Source: Ignavibacterium sp. (GTDB lineage Bacteria > Zixibacteria > MSB-5A5 > GN15 > PGXB01). From it: DNA of 61,767 nucleotides. Location: positions 1-61,767 of the forward strand of contig DYGG01000016.1 of NCBI GenBank assembly GCA_020724775.1, in the 5' to 3' direction. The notes below the pieces were generated by a model. It saw only the letters and a program-made list of their open reading frames with translations. It had not been told where the DNA came from and searched no databases. Position numbers and translations under genes: made by a program. Below are positions 46,616 to 58,841 of the stretch, piece by piece (the stretch's first letter is position 1; each line of letters opens with the position of its first letter).

Positions 46616-47092
46616 TTATCCCTGCCTCCGCAACTCCTCAAGAATCCTATCTACTTTTTCCCGTGTCAAATTCTCATAATATTTATCGTTTATCTGCATC
46701 ATCGGCGCGCTGGCGCAACTGCCGAGACATTCCACTGAAATCAAGGTAAATAGGTTGTCCGGGGTGGTCTCCCCTTTCTTAATCCCCAATTTTTCTTCCA
46801 GGTACCCCACCAGGCTGTCGGCGCCTAACAGGGCGCAACTGATATTATGACAGACCTGAATCAGGTACTTGCCCACCGGCTCCTTGGGAAACATGGTATA
46901 GAAACTTGCCGCCTCGGCAACTTCAATATACGGCACCTCAATAATGTCCGAGATCTCCCTGTAAATCTGGTCGCTCAGATGCCCCACCTGGCGGTAAGCG
47001 ACCGTCAATGCCGGAAGTATCACCGATTTTCGTCGAGGATACTTCACCATTCGCTCTTTTATTTCCGCTATCGATATCTTATTAAGAATCAC
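46616..47092 (-). CDS. nuoE: NADH-quinone oxidoreductase subunit E
   Basis: 158 residues with a GTG start overlapping nuoD by 4 nt. It has a thioredoxin-like [2Fe-2S] fold (cluster N1a). The four ligands are in QVCHNISCALLG and SVECLGSCASAPMMQIND. The N-terminal helical bundle around HLSDQIYREISDII is typical. Confidence 0.96.
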   Translation of the reverse strand: MILNKISIAEIKERMVKYPRRKSVILPALTVAYRQVGHLSDQIYREISDIIEVPYIEVAEAASFYTMFPKEPVGKYLIQVCHNISCALLGADSLVGYLEEKLGIKKGETTPDNLFTLISVECLGSCASAPMMQINDKYYENLTREKVDRILEELRRQG

Positions 47093-48270
47093 CGGTCCAC
47101 CTCACCCAGCACAATATCGATTGAACCGATAACGGCGATGACATCCGCCATCAGCCGTCCTTCCACCATCTCAGGCAATGCCGACAGATTTATGAACGAC
47201 GGCGGTCGCACCCGCATCCGATGAGGCTTATTCGTCCCATCCGAGGATATGTAATATCCCAGTTCCCCTTTGGGGGATTCAATCGCTTGATATACCGCCC
47301 CCCGCGGCGGTTTAAATCCTTCCGTTATAATTTTGAAATGAAATATCAGCGATTCCATCTTCGAGAGGACATCTTCTTTGGGAGGAAGCACTATCCCCGG
47401 GGCATGAACCCGATAAGGTCCCGGCGGCATCCCCTCCAGCGCCTGTTTGACAATCCGCAGCGACTGCCGCATCTCTTCCATTCTGATCAGATACCGGTCA
47501 TAGACATCGCCATTCTTTCCCAACGGTACTTCAAAGTCAAACTTATCATAACCGCAATACGGATTTGCTTTGCGCACATCATAGTTAACCCCGGAACCGC
47601 GCAAACATGGTCCTGACAGACTGCAGTTAATCGCATCTTCCGCCGATATCACGCCCACTCCAATTGTCCGGCTTCGGAAAATCTTGTTGTCATTTAAGAG
47701 TCGCTCGTAATCTTTCAGCCTCTCCGGAATCACTTTCAATATATTTTTCACCCGTTTTTCGAAATCGTCCGGAAGGTCATACGCCAGTCCACCGATTCTG
47801 AAATAGGTTGACATCATTCGCTGGCCCGAGCATGCCTCATAGATGTCAAGGATCATCTCCCGCTCACGGAAGGCGTAAAGCAGCATCGACATCGCTCCCA
47901 GGTCAAGGGCGTGTGTGCCGACCCAGACCAGGTGTGACGCGATTCTGGTCAACTCCGTCAGGATAACCCGCGCATAAACCACCCTCTCCGGCATCTCCAA
48001 TCCGAGAAGTTTTTCTACTGCCAGACAGAATCCCAGATTATTCGACATTGGCGCCAGATAATCCATCCGGTCGGTCATCGGAATCACTTTATAGTAGAGT
48101 TTCGATTCTGCCGTCTTCTCTATGCCGGTATGCAGATACCCGACATGAGGTGTCGCCTTGACCACCGTTTCGCCGTCAAGTTCCAACTCCACCCGAAGCA
48201 CCCCGTGGGTCGCCGGATGCTGCGGACCCATATTAAGAGTCATGGTCTTCTTACCGGCGGCTTCTGTCAC
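47089..48270 (-). CDS. nuoD: NADH-quinone oxidoreductase subunit D
   Basis: 393 residues, GTG start overlapping the nuoC stop (GTGA). It is the 49-kDa hydrogenase-like subunit lining the quinone site. Seen are NMGPQHPATHGVLR (the quinone-site His), YLHTGIEKTAE and the C-terminal IGSIDIVLGEVDR. PCLRGSGVNYDVRKANPYCGY is also typical. Confidence 0.97.
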   Translation of the reverse strand: MTEAAGKKTMTLNMGPQHPATHGVLRVELELDGETVVKATPHVGYLHTGIEKTAESKLYYKVIPMTDRMDYLAPMSNNLGFCLAVEKLLGLEMPERVVYARVILTELTRIASHLVWVGTHALDLGAMSMLLYAFREREMILDIYEACSGQRMMSTYFRIGGLAYDLPDDFEKRVKNILKVIPERLKDYERLLNDNKIFRSRTIGVGVISAEDAINCSLSGPCLRGSGVNYDVRKANPYCGYDKFDFEVPLGKNGDVYDRYLIRMEEMRQSLRIVKQALEGMPPGPYRVHAPGIVLPPKEDVLSKMESLIFHFKIITEGFKPPRGAVYQAIESPKGELGYYISSDGTNKPHRMRVRPPSFINLSALPEMVEGRLMADVIAVIGSIDIVLGEVDR

Positions 48271-48785
48271 AGTATTACCTCCGGCGGTTCGGTCTTGTTG
48301 TAAGAGAACTGCGGCACTTCATAGGTAAGCGGATAATCTTTCCTAAGCGGATACCCCTCCAGTTCATCCGGGGTCACAATCTTTCGCAGGTCGGGATGCC
48401 CGATAAATACTATCCCCATCAAATCAAACACTTCCCGCTCCATCCAGTTTGCCCCCTGCCAGATGGTCGTCACAGTGTCAATAGCCGGCTCACTCTCCGG
48501 AAGTCGCACTTTGAGAAGTAGCCGATACTTCGACTTGAGAGAATACAGATTGTATATAACTTCGAATCGCCCTTCTTTTTCTTCAATATCCCCCAGCCAG
48601 TCCAGAGAGCAGATATCGGACAGGAAAACAAATTCAAGTTCCGGCGCGGTATTCAGCGCCCGGCAAATGTCATAGAGATATTCTTTCTTGATAAAAAAAG
48701 ACTGCTGATTCCGGAAATTATGTTCCCGGATTATCGCGTCTTCAAAGTTCTTCTTAAGAAACTCTCTTACTTTATCTTCCAGCAT
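48267..48785 (-). CDS. nuoC: NADH-quinone oxidoreductase subunit C
   Basis: 172 residues from ATG 48785 (MLEDKVREFL), which has AAGGA close upstream; a GTG at 48806 is the alternative. It is the 30-kDa subunit. ICSLDWLGD, FEVIYNLYSLKSKYRLLLKV and the C-terminal ANWMEREVFDLMGIVFIGH with EGYPLRKDYPLT are diagnostic. It is separate from nuoD, unlike the fused NuoCD of E. coli. Confidence 0.95.
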   Translation of the reverse strand: MLEDKVREFLKKNFEDAIIREHNFRNQQSFFIKKEYLYDICRALNTAPELEFVFLSDICSLDWLGDIEEKEGRFEVIYNLYSLKSKYRLLLKVRLPESEPAIDTVTTIWQGANWMEREVFDLMGIVFIGHPDLRKIVTPDELEGYPLRKDYPLTYEVPQFSYNKTEPPEVIL

Positions 48786-48860
48786 GGTCCTTGTGCCAAA
48801 ATTCACAAATCAAGTCATTCAAAAGTCCGATATCTTATTTCTGACCGGCAGTACTTCTTC

Positions 48861-49358
48861 TCAGGCTTCTTTTTTTGACAGTTTCCTGCTTGAAACCGAT
48901 TCGTTCTTTACTTTCTCAAAAAGTTTCAGAATCCCTTCCATTAACTGCTCCGGACGGGGCGGGCAGCCCGGCACATAGATATCAACCGGGATTATCTTAT
49001 CAACTCCCTGAACTATCGCATAATTATTGAAGACTCCACCGCAAGAGGCGCAGGCGCCCATTGATATCACCCATTTCGGATTGGGCATCTGTTCATAAAG
49101 ACGCTTCACCACTGGAGCCATCTTTACCGAGACTCGACCGGCAACAATCATCAAGTCTGCCTGCCGCGGAGATGGTCTCATCACCTCCATCCCGAATCGG
49201 GCAAGGTCAAAATGCGCGGCAAAAGTTGATATCATTTCAATGGCACAGCAGGCAAGCCCGAAACCTAAGGGCCACATGGACCTTGTTCGCGCCCAATTGA
49301 CCATCTTATCCAGACTGGTGAGAATGATTGAATCTGGAATCTTCGCCTCTATTCCCAC
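48861..49358 (-). CDS. nuoB: NADH-quinone oxidoreductase subunit B
   Basis: 165 residues with a GTG start overlapping nuoA by 10 nt. It carries cluster N2, which reduces the quinone. The tandem Cys and other ligands are in [30 protein letters not shown] and [15 protein letters not shown]. The C-terminal lysine-rich tail is short. Confidence 0.97.
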
Positions 49359-54867: not shown

Positions 54868-54896
54868 TTGACTTTGCTGCCGATTCGGTATAAAAT
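54868..54896 (+). promoter_or_regulatory. Promoter of tRNA-His
   Basis: TTGACT (54868-54873), a 17-nt spacer and TAAAAT (54891-54896). The start would be near 54903, two or three bases before the mature tRNA end. Confidence 0.7.
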
Positions 54897-54905
54897 AGCC
54901 CAGAC

Positions 54906-54980
54906 GCTGGGGTAGCTCAGTTGGTATAGAGCGCCTGACTGTGGATCAGGAGGTCGGGAGTTCGACTCTCCCCCCCAGTA
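54906..54980 (+). tRNA. tRNA-His (GTG), no G-1, U72, A73
   Basis: A 75-nt cloverleaf: acceptor GCTGGGG/CCCCAGT (54906-54912 with 54973-54979, G1-U72 wobble at the end), D stem GCTC/GAGC, anticodon stem CCTGA/TCAGG with loop CTGTGGA (anticodon GTG 54941-54943), T stem GGGAG/CTCCC. The discriminator is A (54980) and the 3' CCA is not encoded. The base before position 1 is C, so the G-1:C73 pair of normal bacterial tRNA-His is absent. Confidence 0.95.
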
Positions 54981-55085
54981 GTTGATATTTCTTCGGTGAA
55001 TCCTTAATTCCTTCCATCATTCAAAAAAAATTGTTTCCGAATTCCAAAAATCTCTTAAATTCAACTACTTAACTTTGCGATAAAT

Positions 55086-56522
55086 ATGGGAAACCTGAAA
55101 TCAAACCGACGAATCGAGCCTCGCCTCCTGAAAGGATTCCGCGATTACCCGCCGGAAGAGGAAATGGCGCGTCAGACTCTCATTGCAAGAGTCCGCTCCA
55201 TTTATGAAAGGCATGGTTTTCTTCCGCTGCAGACCCCCGCGCTGGAATATGCCGAAACCCTGCTCGGCGCTGACTACACCGCCGATAATCTGAAAGATCT
55301 CTTCGGTTTCCGTGGTCCGGATGACGTCGATATGGCTCTTCGTTATGAGTTCACCGTTTCCCTCGCTCGTTACATTGCGGTCAATCCGGAACTGGCTTTA
55401 CCGTTCAGACGATACCAGTACGGTCCGGTTTGGCGGGTTGACAAACCGGGACCGGGACGGTTCCGAGAATTCATGCAGTGCGATTTTGATATTGTCGGCA
55501 CCTCATCGATGCTTGCCGACGCTGAAATTATCGCCGTTATGGTCGAAGTAATGAGCGCTCTGGGAATAAGAAATTTCTTAGTGCGATACTCAAACAGGAA
55601 ATTGATAAACGGCCTTTCTACATTTGCCGGCATTCCCGATAACCGTCTCCAGGATGTCTTCCGCGTCATCGACAAACTGGAAAAACAGGGTCAGGAGGCG
55701 GTCGCATTGGAACTGGGACCGGGTCGAACCGACAGGTCTGGCGATAAAATACCGGGATTGAATCTTGAAAAAAAGCAGATTGACTATCTGATGCGCTTTA
55801 TTGATATCGCCTCCGCTCCGCCTTCCGACCTTCTCGACAGCGTCGAAAAACTATTAGGAAATATCGAGGTCTCCCGCCAGGGGCTTACGGAGTTGCGCCT
55901 GATAGCGCAGTATCTTTCTCGCATGGAGGTCCCTGCCGATAAGACCAGAATTGATATCACCATAGTCCGCGGCCTGGGGTACTATACCGGTCCGGTATAT
56001 GAAACCACTTTGCTCGATCTTCCTGAATATGGTTCTGTTTTCTCCGGTGGACGATACGACAACCTAATTGAGCGATTCTCCAGCAAGTCGTTACCAGCCA
56101 CCGGTTCTTCTTTTGGCGTTGACCGAATGCTTGCCGCGCTCATTGCCCTCAATGCCGTTACCCTCACCAAAGCAACATCTCAGGTACTCGTGACAGCCAT
56201 GGACAAGACTCTGCTCGACAACTATATTTCCCTTGTTTCTGAAATCCGGCGCGCCGGAATCAATGCCGAACTTTTTATGGGGGAGACTAAGAATTTGAAC
56301 AAGCAACTCAAATATGCTGACCGCATCGGTATCCCCCTGGCAGTGATTTCCGGCTCTGATGAATTCCAGTCCGGCACCGTTACCGTTAAAGACCTTCGTG
56401 CCGGCGCCGAAAGAGCCCGCAATCTGACCGACCGCAAAGATTGGCTCAAAGCCGAGCAGGTGCAGGAAACCATTGACCGTTCTCAATTAATCCCCTATCT
56501 GAAGAGTAAACTATCGGGGTGA
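55086..56522 (+). CDS. hisS: Histidyl-tRNA synthetase, divergent (Caulobacter-like) type
   Basis: 478 residues. It is a class II synthetase: motif 1 region PLQTPALEYAETLLG, motif 2 FRRYQYGPVWRVDKPGPG, histidine-specific VRGLGYYTGPVYE and motif 3 SSFGVDRMLAAL. The motif-2 loop reads KPGPGRFREFMQ (about 120-131) where ordinary HisRS has Q-A-G-R-x-R-x-F-H-Q. This is the form known in a group of alphaproteobacteria whose tRNA-His lacks G-1. The C-terminal anticodon domain (VLVTAMDKTLLDNYISLV) is present. It lies 105 nt after the matching tRNA-His gene. HisZ is excluded because the catalytic residues are kept. Confidence 0.93.
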   Translation: MGNLKSNRRIEPRLLKGFRDYPPEEEMARQTLIARVRSIYERHGFLPLQTPALEYAETLLGADYTADNLKDLFGFRGPDDVDMALRYEFTVSLARYIAVNPELALPFRRYQYGPVWRVDKPGPGRFREFMQCDFDIVGTSSMLADAEIIAVMVEVMSALGIRNFLVRYSNRKLINGLSTFAGIPDNRLQDVFRVIDKLEKQGQEAVALELGPGRTDRSGDKIPGLNLEKKQIDYLMRFIDIASAPPSDLLDSVEKLLGNIEVSRQGLTELRLIAQYLSRMEVPADKTRIDITIVRGLGYYTGPVYETTLLDLPEYGSVFSGGRYDNLIERFSSKSLPATGSSFGVDRMLAALIALNAVTLTKATSQVLVTAMDKTLLDNYISLVSEIRRAGINAELFMGETKNLNKQLKYADRIGIPLAVISGSDEFQSGTVTVKDLRAGAERARNLTDRKDWLKAEQVQETIDRSQLIPYLKSKLSG

Positions 56523-57308: not shown

Positions 57309-58841
57309 ATGCGAAAAAATACCATTCGTTTACTTTCACTTCTGATACCGATACTTCCGCTCGTTTTCACACCGAGTCTGGTACATTCGCAAACTTCTGC
57401 GGCGATAAAGTCAATTAAACTTTTTCGCGCCGAAAATTCCAAACGAACATATCAGTTTCTTATTAATTCGGAGCCGTTTGGCTCACTTGAATCGGTGTAC
57501 GATGGCACCGCGCGCTTCGAAGGCTCCCGCGGCCATCGCTTCATCGAAAAACTGAATCTCGACTTTTCGTCTTTCGCCAATCCTTATACTCTCAAAATCG
57601 AGAATGAGCATTACTGCGACGATTCCGGCCGGTATCTGGGAGATGAAATGAGTCTCAAAATTGATAGTATTTCGCAGGAACTGTTTCTTCGTTACGGAAA
57701 TGGAAAGATTTCCGGTCATCTCAAGCGCGACAGACGAGAGGAGAATATCGAACGGGATGCTCCCCGTACCTATTTCGCAATTGATAACTATCTGGTTGAC
57801 CAACTTGAGTCTTTCCTCGCCTTTCACGACCTCAAAGTAGGCGATACTATTGCCGATTCCTTCTTCATACCTCAGACGGCGACCTTCTCTCAGGCTCGTT
57901 ATGTCGTTGAGGGATTCGCTCGGATACCGTACGGCAATATGGTTGACTCCGCCTTTGTCTGCCGCTTTCTGGAACCGCTGGAGCAAACCGCTTATATCAC
58001 CCGTGACCGGCGGCTAATAAAAGTGATACAGCCCTTTCAAAACATCACCATTGTTCTCAAGGAGACGATTCTGGACCGCCTGCGCCCGCCCAAGAAATCT
58101 CTATCTATTTTAGACCATACCCGCCGTCTTCCTCTCTACCTGTTTTTTCTTGGGATAGGTGTCGTCCTCACCGCCCCCTTCTGGTTCAAATATCGCCGTC
58201 AGTATAGCATATTCTTTGCCTTTATAGTTGGCGCCTTTGTTTACCTTCTTGTCGGGGTCACCCATATACCTCTCCAGGAATGGTATTCTAATCGCGTCGT
58301 CTTCCCTGCCATTCAGCAGGGCGGCTCTATTTATGCTTTCACAATCGGCAATGCTCTCATGACCGGATTTGTCAAAGAATTGCTTAAAATTCTGCCGGTA
58401 ATTCTTTTCTTCTTATTTCGGAAATCAAACATGCCGCCCTTATATATTTTCGGAATCTTTTGCGGCGCCGGTTTTGGAATAATCGAATCCGGCGCTTTGA
58501 CCGGCGACGCTTATCAAGCCGGTGCCATGAAATTCCTCTCCTGGGGCGCCTTCGAGCGAATTACCGCTCTGGTTTTTCATATGACTTCAGGCGCCCTATA
58601 CGGCTGGGCGCTTCGCCATTCTCTGCCCCGTACAGTTTCCATTTTCATCGCTCTCTTTACCCTTCACTCTTTCACCACTTACCTCATTGTGTTCGTTCAG
58701 AAAAAAATCATCGATATAGCCCTCTTTGAACTTCTGGTTGCCCTCATCTATCTGATTCTGCTTCTCATCGCCTATCTGAAAATTTCCGGCAGTTCCCTTT
58801 TCAACAAACCTACGGGTCACAAAAAGTCAGTTAAGAGTTGA
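57309..58841 (+). CDS. PrsW-like intramembrane protease with N-terminal periplasmic domain
   Basis: 510 residues. A signal or anchor (LLSLLIPILPLVF) leads into an extracytoplasmic beta-rich region of about 230 residues resembling DUF3108 proteins (for example YQFLINSEPFGSLESVYDG). About eight helices follow from residue 275. The PrsW signature appears as TGFVKELLKILPVILF, CGAGFGIIESGALTG and ERITALVFHMTSGALYGW. These Glu, Glu and His residues form the presumed active site of PrsW/CPBP-clan glutamic proteases. The substrate is unknown; fusion to a sensory domain suggests regulated cleavage. Confidence 0.8.
   Translation: MRKNTIRLLSLLIPILPLVFTPSLVHSQTSAAIKSIKLFRAENSKRTYQFLINSEPFGSLESVYDGTARFEGSRGHRFIEKLNLDFSSFANPYTLKIENEHYCDDSGRYLGDEMSLKIDSISQELFLRYGNGKISGHLKRDRREENIERDAPRTYFAIDNYLVDQLESFLAFHDLKVGDTIADSFFIPQTATFSQARYVVEGFARIPYGNMVDSAFVCRFLEPLEQTAYITRDRRLIKVIQPFQNITIVLKETILDRLRPPKKSLSILDHTRRLPLYLFFLGIGVVLTAPFWFKYRRQYSIFFAFIVGAFVYLLVGVTHIPLQEWYSNRVVFPAIQQGGSIYAFTIGNALMTGFVKELLKILPVILFFLFRKSNMPPLYIFGIFCGAGFGIIESGALTGDAYQAGAMKFLSWGAFERITALVFHMTSGALYGWALRHSLPRTVSIFIALFTLHSFTTYLIVFVQKKIIDIALFELLVALIYLILLLIAYLKISGSSLFNKPTGHKKSVKS

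Follow-up and report, generated by a model that had tools for sequence, protein, structure and literature searches.

How does a bacterium outside the alphaproteobacteria decode histidine with a tRNA-His that lacks G at position -1, and where did it come by the synthetase encoded beside that tRNA? These questions are raised by a locus in a 61,767-nucleotide stretch of DNA from a member of the Zixibacteria (the window, in what follows). Among bacteria, tRNA-His without G-1 has been reported from a group of alphaproteobacteria, unlike all other bacteria (PMC4284800, PMC6471195), and in Caulobacter crescentus histidine identity rests instead on A73, U72 and the anticodon (PMC9976931). The corresponding pair of the RRCH clade of alphaproteobacteria goes back to Ardell & Andersson 2006, Wang 2007 and Yuan 2011, as related in PMC9976931, PMC3937112 and PMC5370408. 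A single bacterial origin of the trait is considered likely (PMC3937112), and the source of the alphaproteobacterial histidyl-tRNA synthetase (HisRS) is debated between eukaryotic transfer and convergence (PMC5370408). We assign a probability of roughly 0.88 to the following reading: the window encodes a Caulobacter-type, G-1-independent pair that is the sole histidine decoder of its host, and whose HisRS lineage has a single origin outside the alphaproteobacteria, was inherited mostly vertically within the host's order, and was co-transferred with its tRNA elsewhere. The features on which this reading is built are as follows.

54868..54896, + strand: promoter-like TTGACT-17-TAAAAT immediately 5' of the tRNA-His gene (consensus scan only, 10/12 matches).
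54906-54980, + strand: tRNA-His(GUG), the sole tRNA gene of the window (ARAGORN; Rfam RF00005, 70.8 bits, E 1.8e-13; whole-genome tRNA scan).
54981..55085, + strand: gap of 105 bases between tRNA-His and hisS, scanned for terminators.
55086..56522, + strand: hisS, histidyl-tRNA synthetase of 478 aa, of the divergent G-1-independent type (TIGR00442, PF13393 + PF03129, tree).
55443-55478, + strand: motif 2 loop of HisRS, residues 120-131, KPGPGRFREFMQ (73-row alignment).

Direct reading of the sequence bears out the acceptor end described in the initial annotation. Position -1 (54905, + strand) is C rather than G, the acceptor arms read GCTGGGG and CCCCAGT, G1 (54906) stands opposite U72 (54979; T in the DNA), and the discriminator is A73 (54980); the CCA end is absent from the gene sequence. 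The divergent HisRS annotated beside this tRNA is also there, 105 bases downstream. It scores 357.9 bits against the NCBIfam model TIGR00442 (cut-off 286.75) and combines the Pfam HisRS catalytic core (PF13393) with the C-terminal HGTP anticodon-binding domain (PF03129). This score and the presence of both domains rule out a HisZ paralogue. Its motif 2 loop contains KPGPGR against the RPQKGR of ordinary bacterial enzymes, and in the 73-row alignment Gly122 occupies the position of the canonical Gln, a residue said to contact the G-1:C73 pair (PMC3937112). The absence of a + strand terminator-like site from the 105-base gap makes co-transcription of tRNA-His and hisS possible. The promoter-like TTGACT-17-TAAAAT is a weak prediction (1 observed against 0.5 expected in shuffles); it would be compatible with joint transcription of tRNA and hisS from a start only a few bases before G1, leaving a very short leader. 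Further along the window lie a membrane-rich ORF of 510 aa (57309-58841, + strand) with no Pfam or NCBIfam match at E 0.001 and, at 47089-49358 on the - strand, ORFs that, judged from their translations only, resemble the NADH-quinone oxidoreductase subunits NuoD, NuoC and NuoB.

The pair appears to be the only one in its genome. There is a single PF13393 match genome-wide, and just one of the 39 tRNAs is a tRNA-His; none of the 39 has G at -1, and none has C73. The whole-genome scan, covering 87 contigs of an assembly that is 95.66% complete, thus found no second tRNA-His. As tRNA-Ile, -Phe and -Tyr were likewise not found in it, the assembly is incomplete, and the case against a second tRNA-His, though strong, is not absolute. 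Since the canonical pair is absent, we propose that the window pair does all of the histidine decoding. In the genome G004, a partial second hisS match (C131:11711-12055; 115 aa, 81% identical) occurs on another contig than the complete gene, and may reflect strain variation or a duplication.

With the canonical bacterial pair, which is found in other Zixibacteria families, the window pair shares the class II enzyme and the GUG anticodon; missing are G-1, C73, G1:C72 and the loop Gln. With the Caulobacter/RRCH pair it shares the lack of G-1, G1:U72, A73, the Gln-to-Gly replacement in the loop (KPGPGR) and the HisRS clade. The same anatomy and the same enzyme clade as in Caulobacter make the same mechanism likely. 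RNase P would cut the precursor at +1, with loss of C-1, and the mature tRNA-His would begin at G1, paired with U72, and bear A73. The HisRS, devoid of the loop Gln, would then charge this tRNA through the GUG anticodon, via its C-terminal domain, and through U72 and A73, as we infer from Caulobacter biochemistry. By the same analogy, the window pair is predicted to charge without G-1 and to be orthogonal to the E. coli pair. Charging of a G-1-less tRNA-His such as we propose here is also known from Trypanosoma brucei and Acanthamoeba, where it is reported as a separate solution, the enzymes being described as dissimilar in sequence from those of bacteria (PMC6471195, PMC4284800).

The phylogeny of HisRS supports the affinity to the alphaproteobacterial pair. 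We aligned 73 rows, with the eukaryotes represented by one sequence (human HARS), and removed the columns of the motif 2 loop before building the tree. All 53 of the 53 enzymes of the derived type nonetheless form one clade (support 100/99); the window protein falls within it together with the divergent enzymes of the alphaproteobacteria, not with ordinary bacterial ones, and the loop state changes once on the tree. The 12 alphaproteobacterial enzymes constitute a single branch (100/96) nested in a subclade (100/100) that otherwise consists of Planctomycetota, some Zixibacteria and bacteria of no given phylum, and a tree placing them outside the other derived HisRS is rejected (p-AU 1.4e-5). 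The tested clades were partly picked after inspection of the tree, and this and the following p-value are hence guides. In distinction to the Caulobacter/RRCH version, the window pair thus has a host of another phylum, the Zixibacteria (which NCBI places in the FCB group, as the initial annotation had surmised), and an enzyme ~36-41% identical to, and outside the branch of, the alphaproteobacterial ones, which are a nested branch and not the root. The tandem of tRNA-His and hisS in the window was also not seen in the alphaproteobacterial loci that were read.

Within the derived clade, the window HisRS belongs to a 16-row clade of Zixibacteria (100/99). Members of a family lie together there, a pattern that fits predominantly vertical inheritance. 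Other branches are held by families f14 and f17, part of f3, and the genome G100, and a single clade of all Zixibacteria derived HisRS is rejected (p-AU 4e-48); since these enzymes do not form one clade, the pair was acquired or exchanged several times in the phylum. The initial annotation had left the choice between co-transfer and an ancestral origin. In the window's own lineage the pair is old and its inheritance mostly vertical; the co-transfer of an adjacent pair is encountered elsewhere, in G100 (see below).

A scan of a collection of 84,980 species genomes, in which the matches listed give a lower bound on the phyla, extends this distribution. Among these matches, the derived HisRS type is found in MAGs labelled Acidobacteria, Planctomycetota, Hydrogenedentes, Nitrospiraceae and Bacteroidetes (one), in addition to alphaproteobacteria (the phylum labels of MAGs outside the Zixibacteria are those of their record titles). 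Where readable, the tRNA-His of these MAGs is U72-A73, except for one planctomycete MAG with C1:G72 and A73; among the matches listed, the Gln-type enzymes with a readable tRNA-His go with C73 (3/3 genomes). The exceptional Planctomycetaceae MAG (L173/L245) has a loop with an extra residue, KKPGPGR, and a HisRS branch adjoining that of the alphaproteobacteria. On the evidence of the sequences, the presumptive G-1-less pair spans no fewer than five or six phyla. Outside the Zixibacteria, which are its stronghold, the derived tRNA-His is rare: in evenly drawn samples, it occurs in 5/130 Planctomycetota genomes with a match and in 3 of ~84 credible tRNA-His matches from Acidobacteriota. Some Planctomycetota (e.g., G192, G168 and G221) have C73 tRNA-His with the odd 3' ends GAAC, CCGC and TGGC, a sign that the acceptor end may have drifted further in this phylum.

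Such patchy spread is what might be expected had G-1 been lost separately from ordinary pairs in Zixibacteria and alphaproteobacteria, and convergence has indeed been put forward in PMC5370408, though between alphaproteobacteria and eukaryotes. We regard such independent losses as quite improbable: the grouping of the enzymes in one clade even without the loop columns, the single change of loop state and the nested position of the alphaproteobacteria all speak against them, as do the tRNAs themselves, because derived tRNA bodies are more alike across phyla than derived and canonical ones are within one phylum. The single bacterial origin of the derived HisRS lineage that we favor would lie outside the alphaproteobacteria.

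A second alternative is a eukaryote-like route, in which an A73 tRNA receives G-1 post-transcriptionally from a Thg1-like enzyme. A73 is the eukaryotic discriminator, and by sequence the window HisRS falls into the eukaryote-like half of the HisRS family, with human HARS among its best PDB matches. However, neither the window genome nor any of the 97 Zixibacteria genomes yields a Thg1/TLP match, while a Methanosarcina genome used as a control does. Accordingly, the eukaryotic form of histidine identity, with a Thg1-added G-1 opposite A73, is not what is seen in the window. Furthermore, its motif 2 loop is unlike the human one, and the derived clade is separate from human HARS; we consider this route a shade less credible even than independent loss. 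The tree lends no support to a eukaryotic source for the derived clade either, with the single eukaryotic sequence, human HARS, lying outside on a long branch. A closer outgroup is formed by the eukaryote-like HisRS of Bacteroidota, Nostoc, Anaerolineales and the Zixibacteria families f7 and f8. Unlike the window enzyme, these have RPQK or KPQK loops (RAKD in Nostoc), and their tRNA-His, wherever readable, has C73. The Zixibacteria examples, L115 (G045, f7) and L114 (G047, f8), are Bacteroidota-like enzymes with the Gln loop RPQKGR or KPQKGR, the f7 genomes having C73; with them, the Zixibacteria hold at least three HisRS lineages.

Misbinning of an alphaproteobacterial contig, conceivable in a draft assembly of 87 contigs, is refuted by the 93% identical HisRS and same tRNA of the same-genus genome G001, by the occurrence of the derived type throughout the window's order, and by the mere ~36-41% identity to alphaproteobacterial enzymes noted above.

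The Caulobacter-type reading gains further weight from the covariation of the two genes. With a search pattern built to show the 3' acceptor end, a readable tRNA-His was obtained from 83 of the 97 Zixibacteria genomes, 59 of which have a derived type (57 with U72/A73 and two with U72/U73) and 24 the canonical C73. In the 79 genomes with both genes, HisRS type matches tRNA-His type without exception (57 derived, 22 C73, 0 crossed), with HisRS typed in most of these by similarity to the window protein and not by loop reading. Where Zixibacteria loops were read, KP[G/D]xGR accompanies derived tRNAs, and RPQ[KA]GR or KPQKGR accompanies C73. Across all genomes with a loop read, K-P-[G/D/A] pairs with U72 (one exception, G72) and a non-C73 discriminator, and Gln with C73. 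An in-frame TAA in the otherwise intact HisRS gene L056 (G039) is possibly a sequencing or assembly error.

The 5' ends follow the same division. All 16 distinct canonical tRNA-His sequences with a readable 5' end (13 from Zixibacteria) have G-1 and G1:C72, and 60 of the 61 comparable derived sequences from all phyla have G1:U72. Position -1 in these 61 is T in 51, C in five, A in two and G in three. Although U is the commonest base at this position both in the derived A73 sequences (51/59) and in all tRNAs of the window genome (18/39), its higher frequency in the former, where it could pair with A73, suggests that the base at -1 is perhaps not entirely neutral; in the window it is C. Both available genomes of family f17, L125 (G095) and L107 (G096), have a tRNA-His with G-1, U73 and G1:U72, and their HisRS fall on different branches of the tree. 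Read from sequence, this G-1/U73 combination is apparently either intermediate between the two known states or a further one alongside them, and, with it, the identity rule would not be uniform across the derived clade.

The tandem of tRNA-His immediately 5' of a co-oriented hisS recurs in part of f1, in f2, f9, f10 and f14, in one genome each of f17 and f3, and in G100, as well as in a Bacteroidetes-labelled MAG (L151) and two planctomycete MAGs (L156, L173); it is absent from all canonical Zixibacteria genomes surveyed. In G100, an adjacent derived pair on a 514-kb contig is the only pair found, whereas only the canonical pair is present in the congeneric G098 and G099. The tRNA-His body of G100 matches the one of G099 at 75% identity, whereas its identity to derived tRNAs of other phyla reaches 91%, the 91% match being with the Bacteroidetes MAG. 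Hence, an adjacent derived pair has replaced the canonical pair kept by the congeners, implying that co-transfer happens. To judge from these comparisons, the whole tRNA gene of G100 most likely arrived with HisRS, and not through mutation of the resident tRNA. Within the window's order the pair would have been passed on mostly vertically, and elsewhere the side-by-side arrangement of the two genes would have allowed joint transfer, including between phyla.

The window pair belongs to the known Caulobacter kind; what is surprising is its wider distribution, its origin elsewhere and the travelling together of its two genes. It is probable, in our estimation, that the pair was not invented in the alphaproteobacteria, that it represents an older HisRS-tRNA-His lineage with an evolution of its own, that it moves between phyla as a tandem unit, the alphaproteobacteria being recipients, probably from a Planctomycetota-like source, and that further identity states exist (the G-1/U73 of f17 and the C1:G72/A73 of the planctomycete). 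In the literature covered, the pairing in bacteria is described only from alphaproteobacteria, and an earlier report elsewhere is possible; a search of mostly open-access papers for the trait in Planctomycetes found nothing, and by title and abstract none of the papers naming Zixibacteria with tRNA synthetases is about HisRS.

These observations uphold a single bacterial origin of the trait, but not one in the alphaproteobacteria, which are here a side branch, and the wider spread makes the source of the alphaproteobacterial enzyme (PMC5370408) directly testable. They add to the candidate orthogonal histidine pairs available for work on the genetic code, in which alphaproteobacterial pairs are used in the literature, and the coupled tRNA and loop changes form a naturally occurring series in which the switching of a tRNA identity rule can be studied. 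The pair is also a rare case of a tRNA and its cognate synthetase that are transferable as a working unit.
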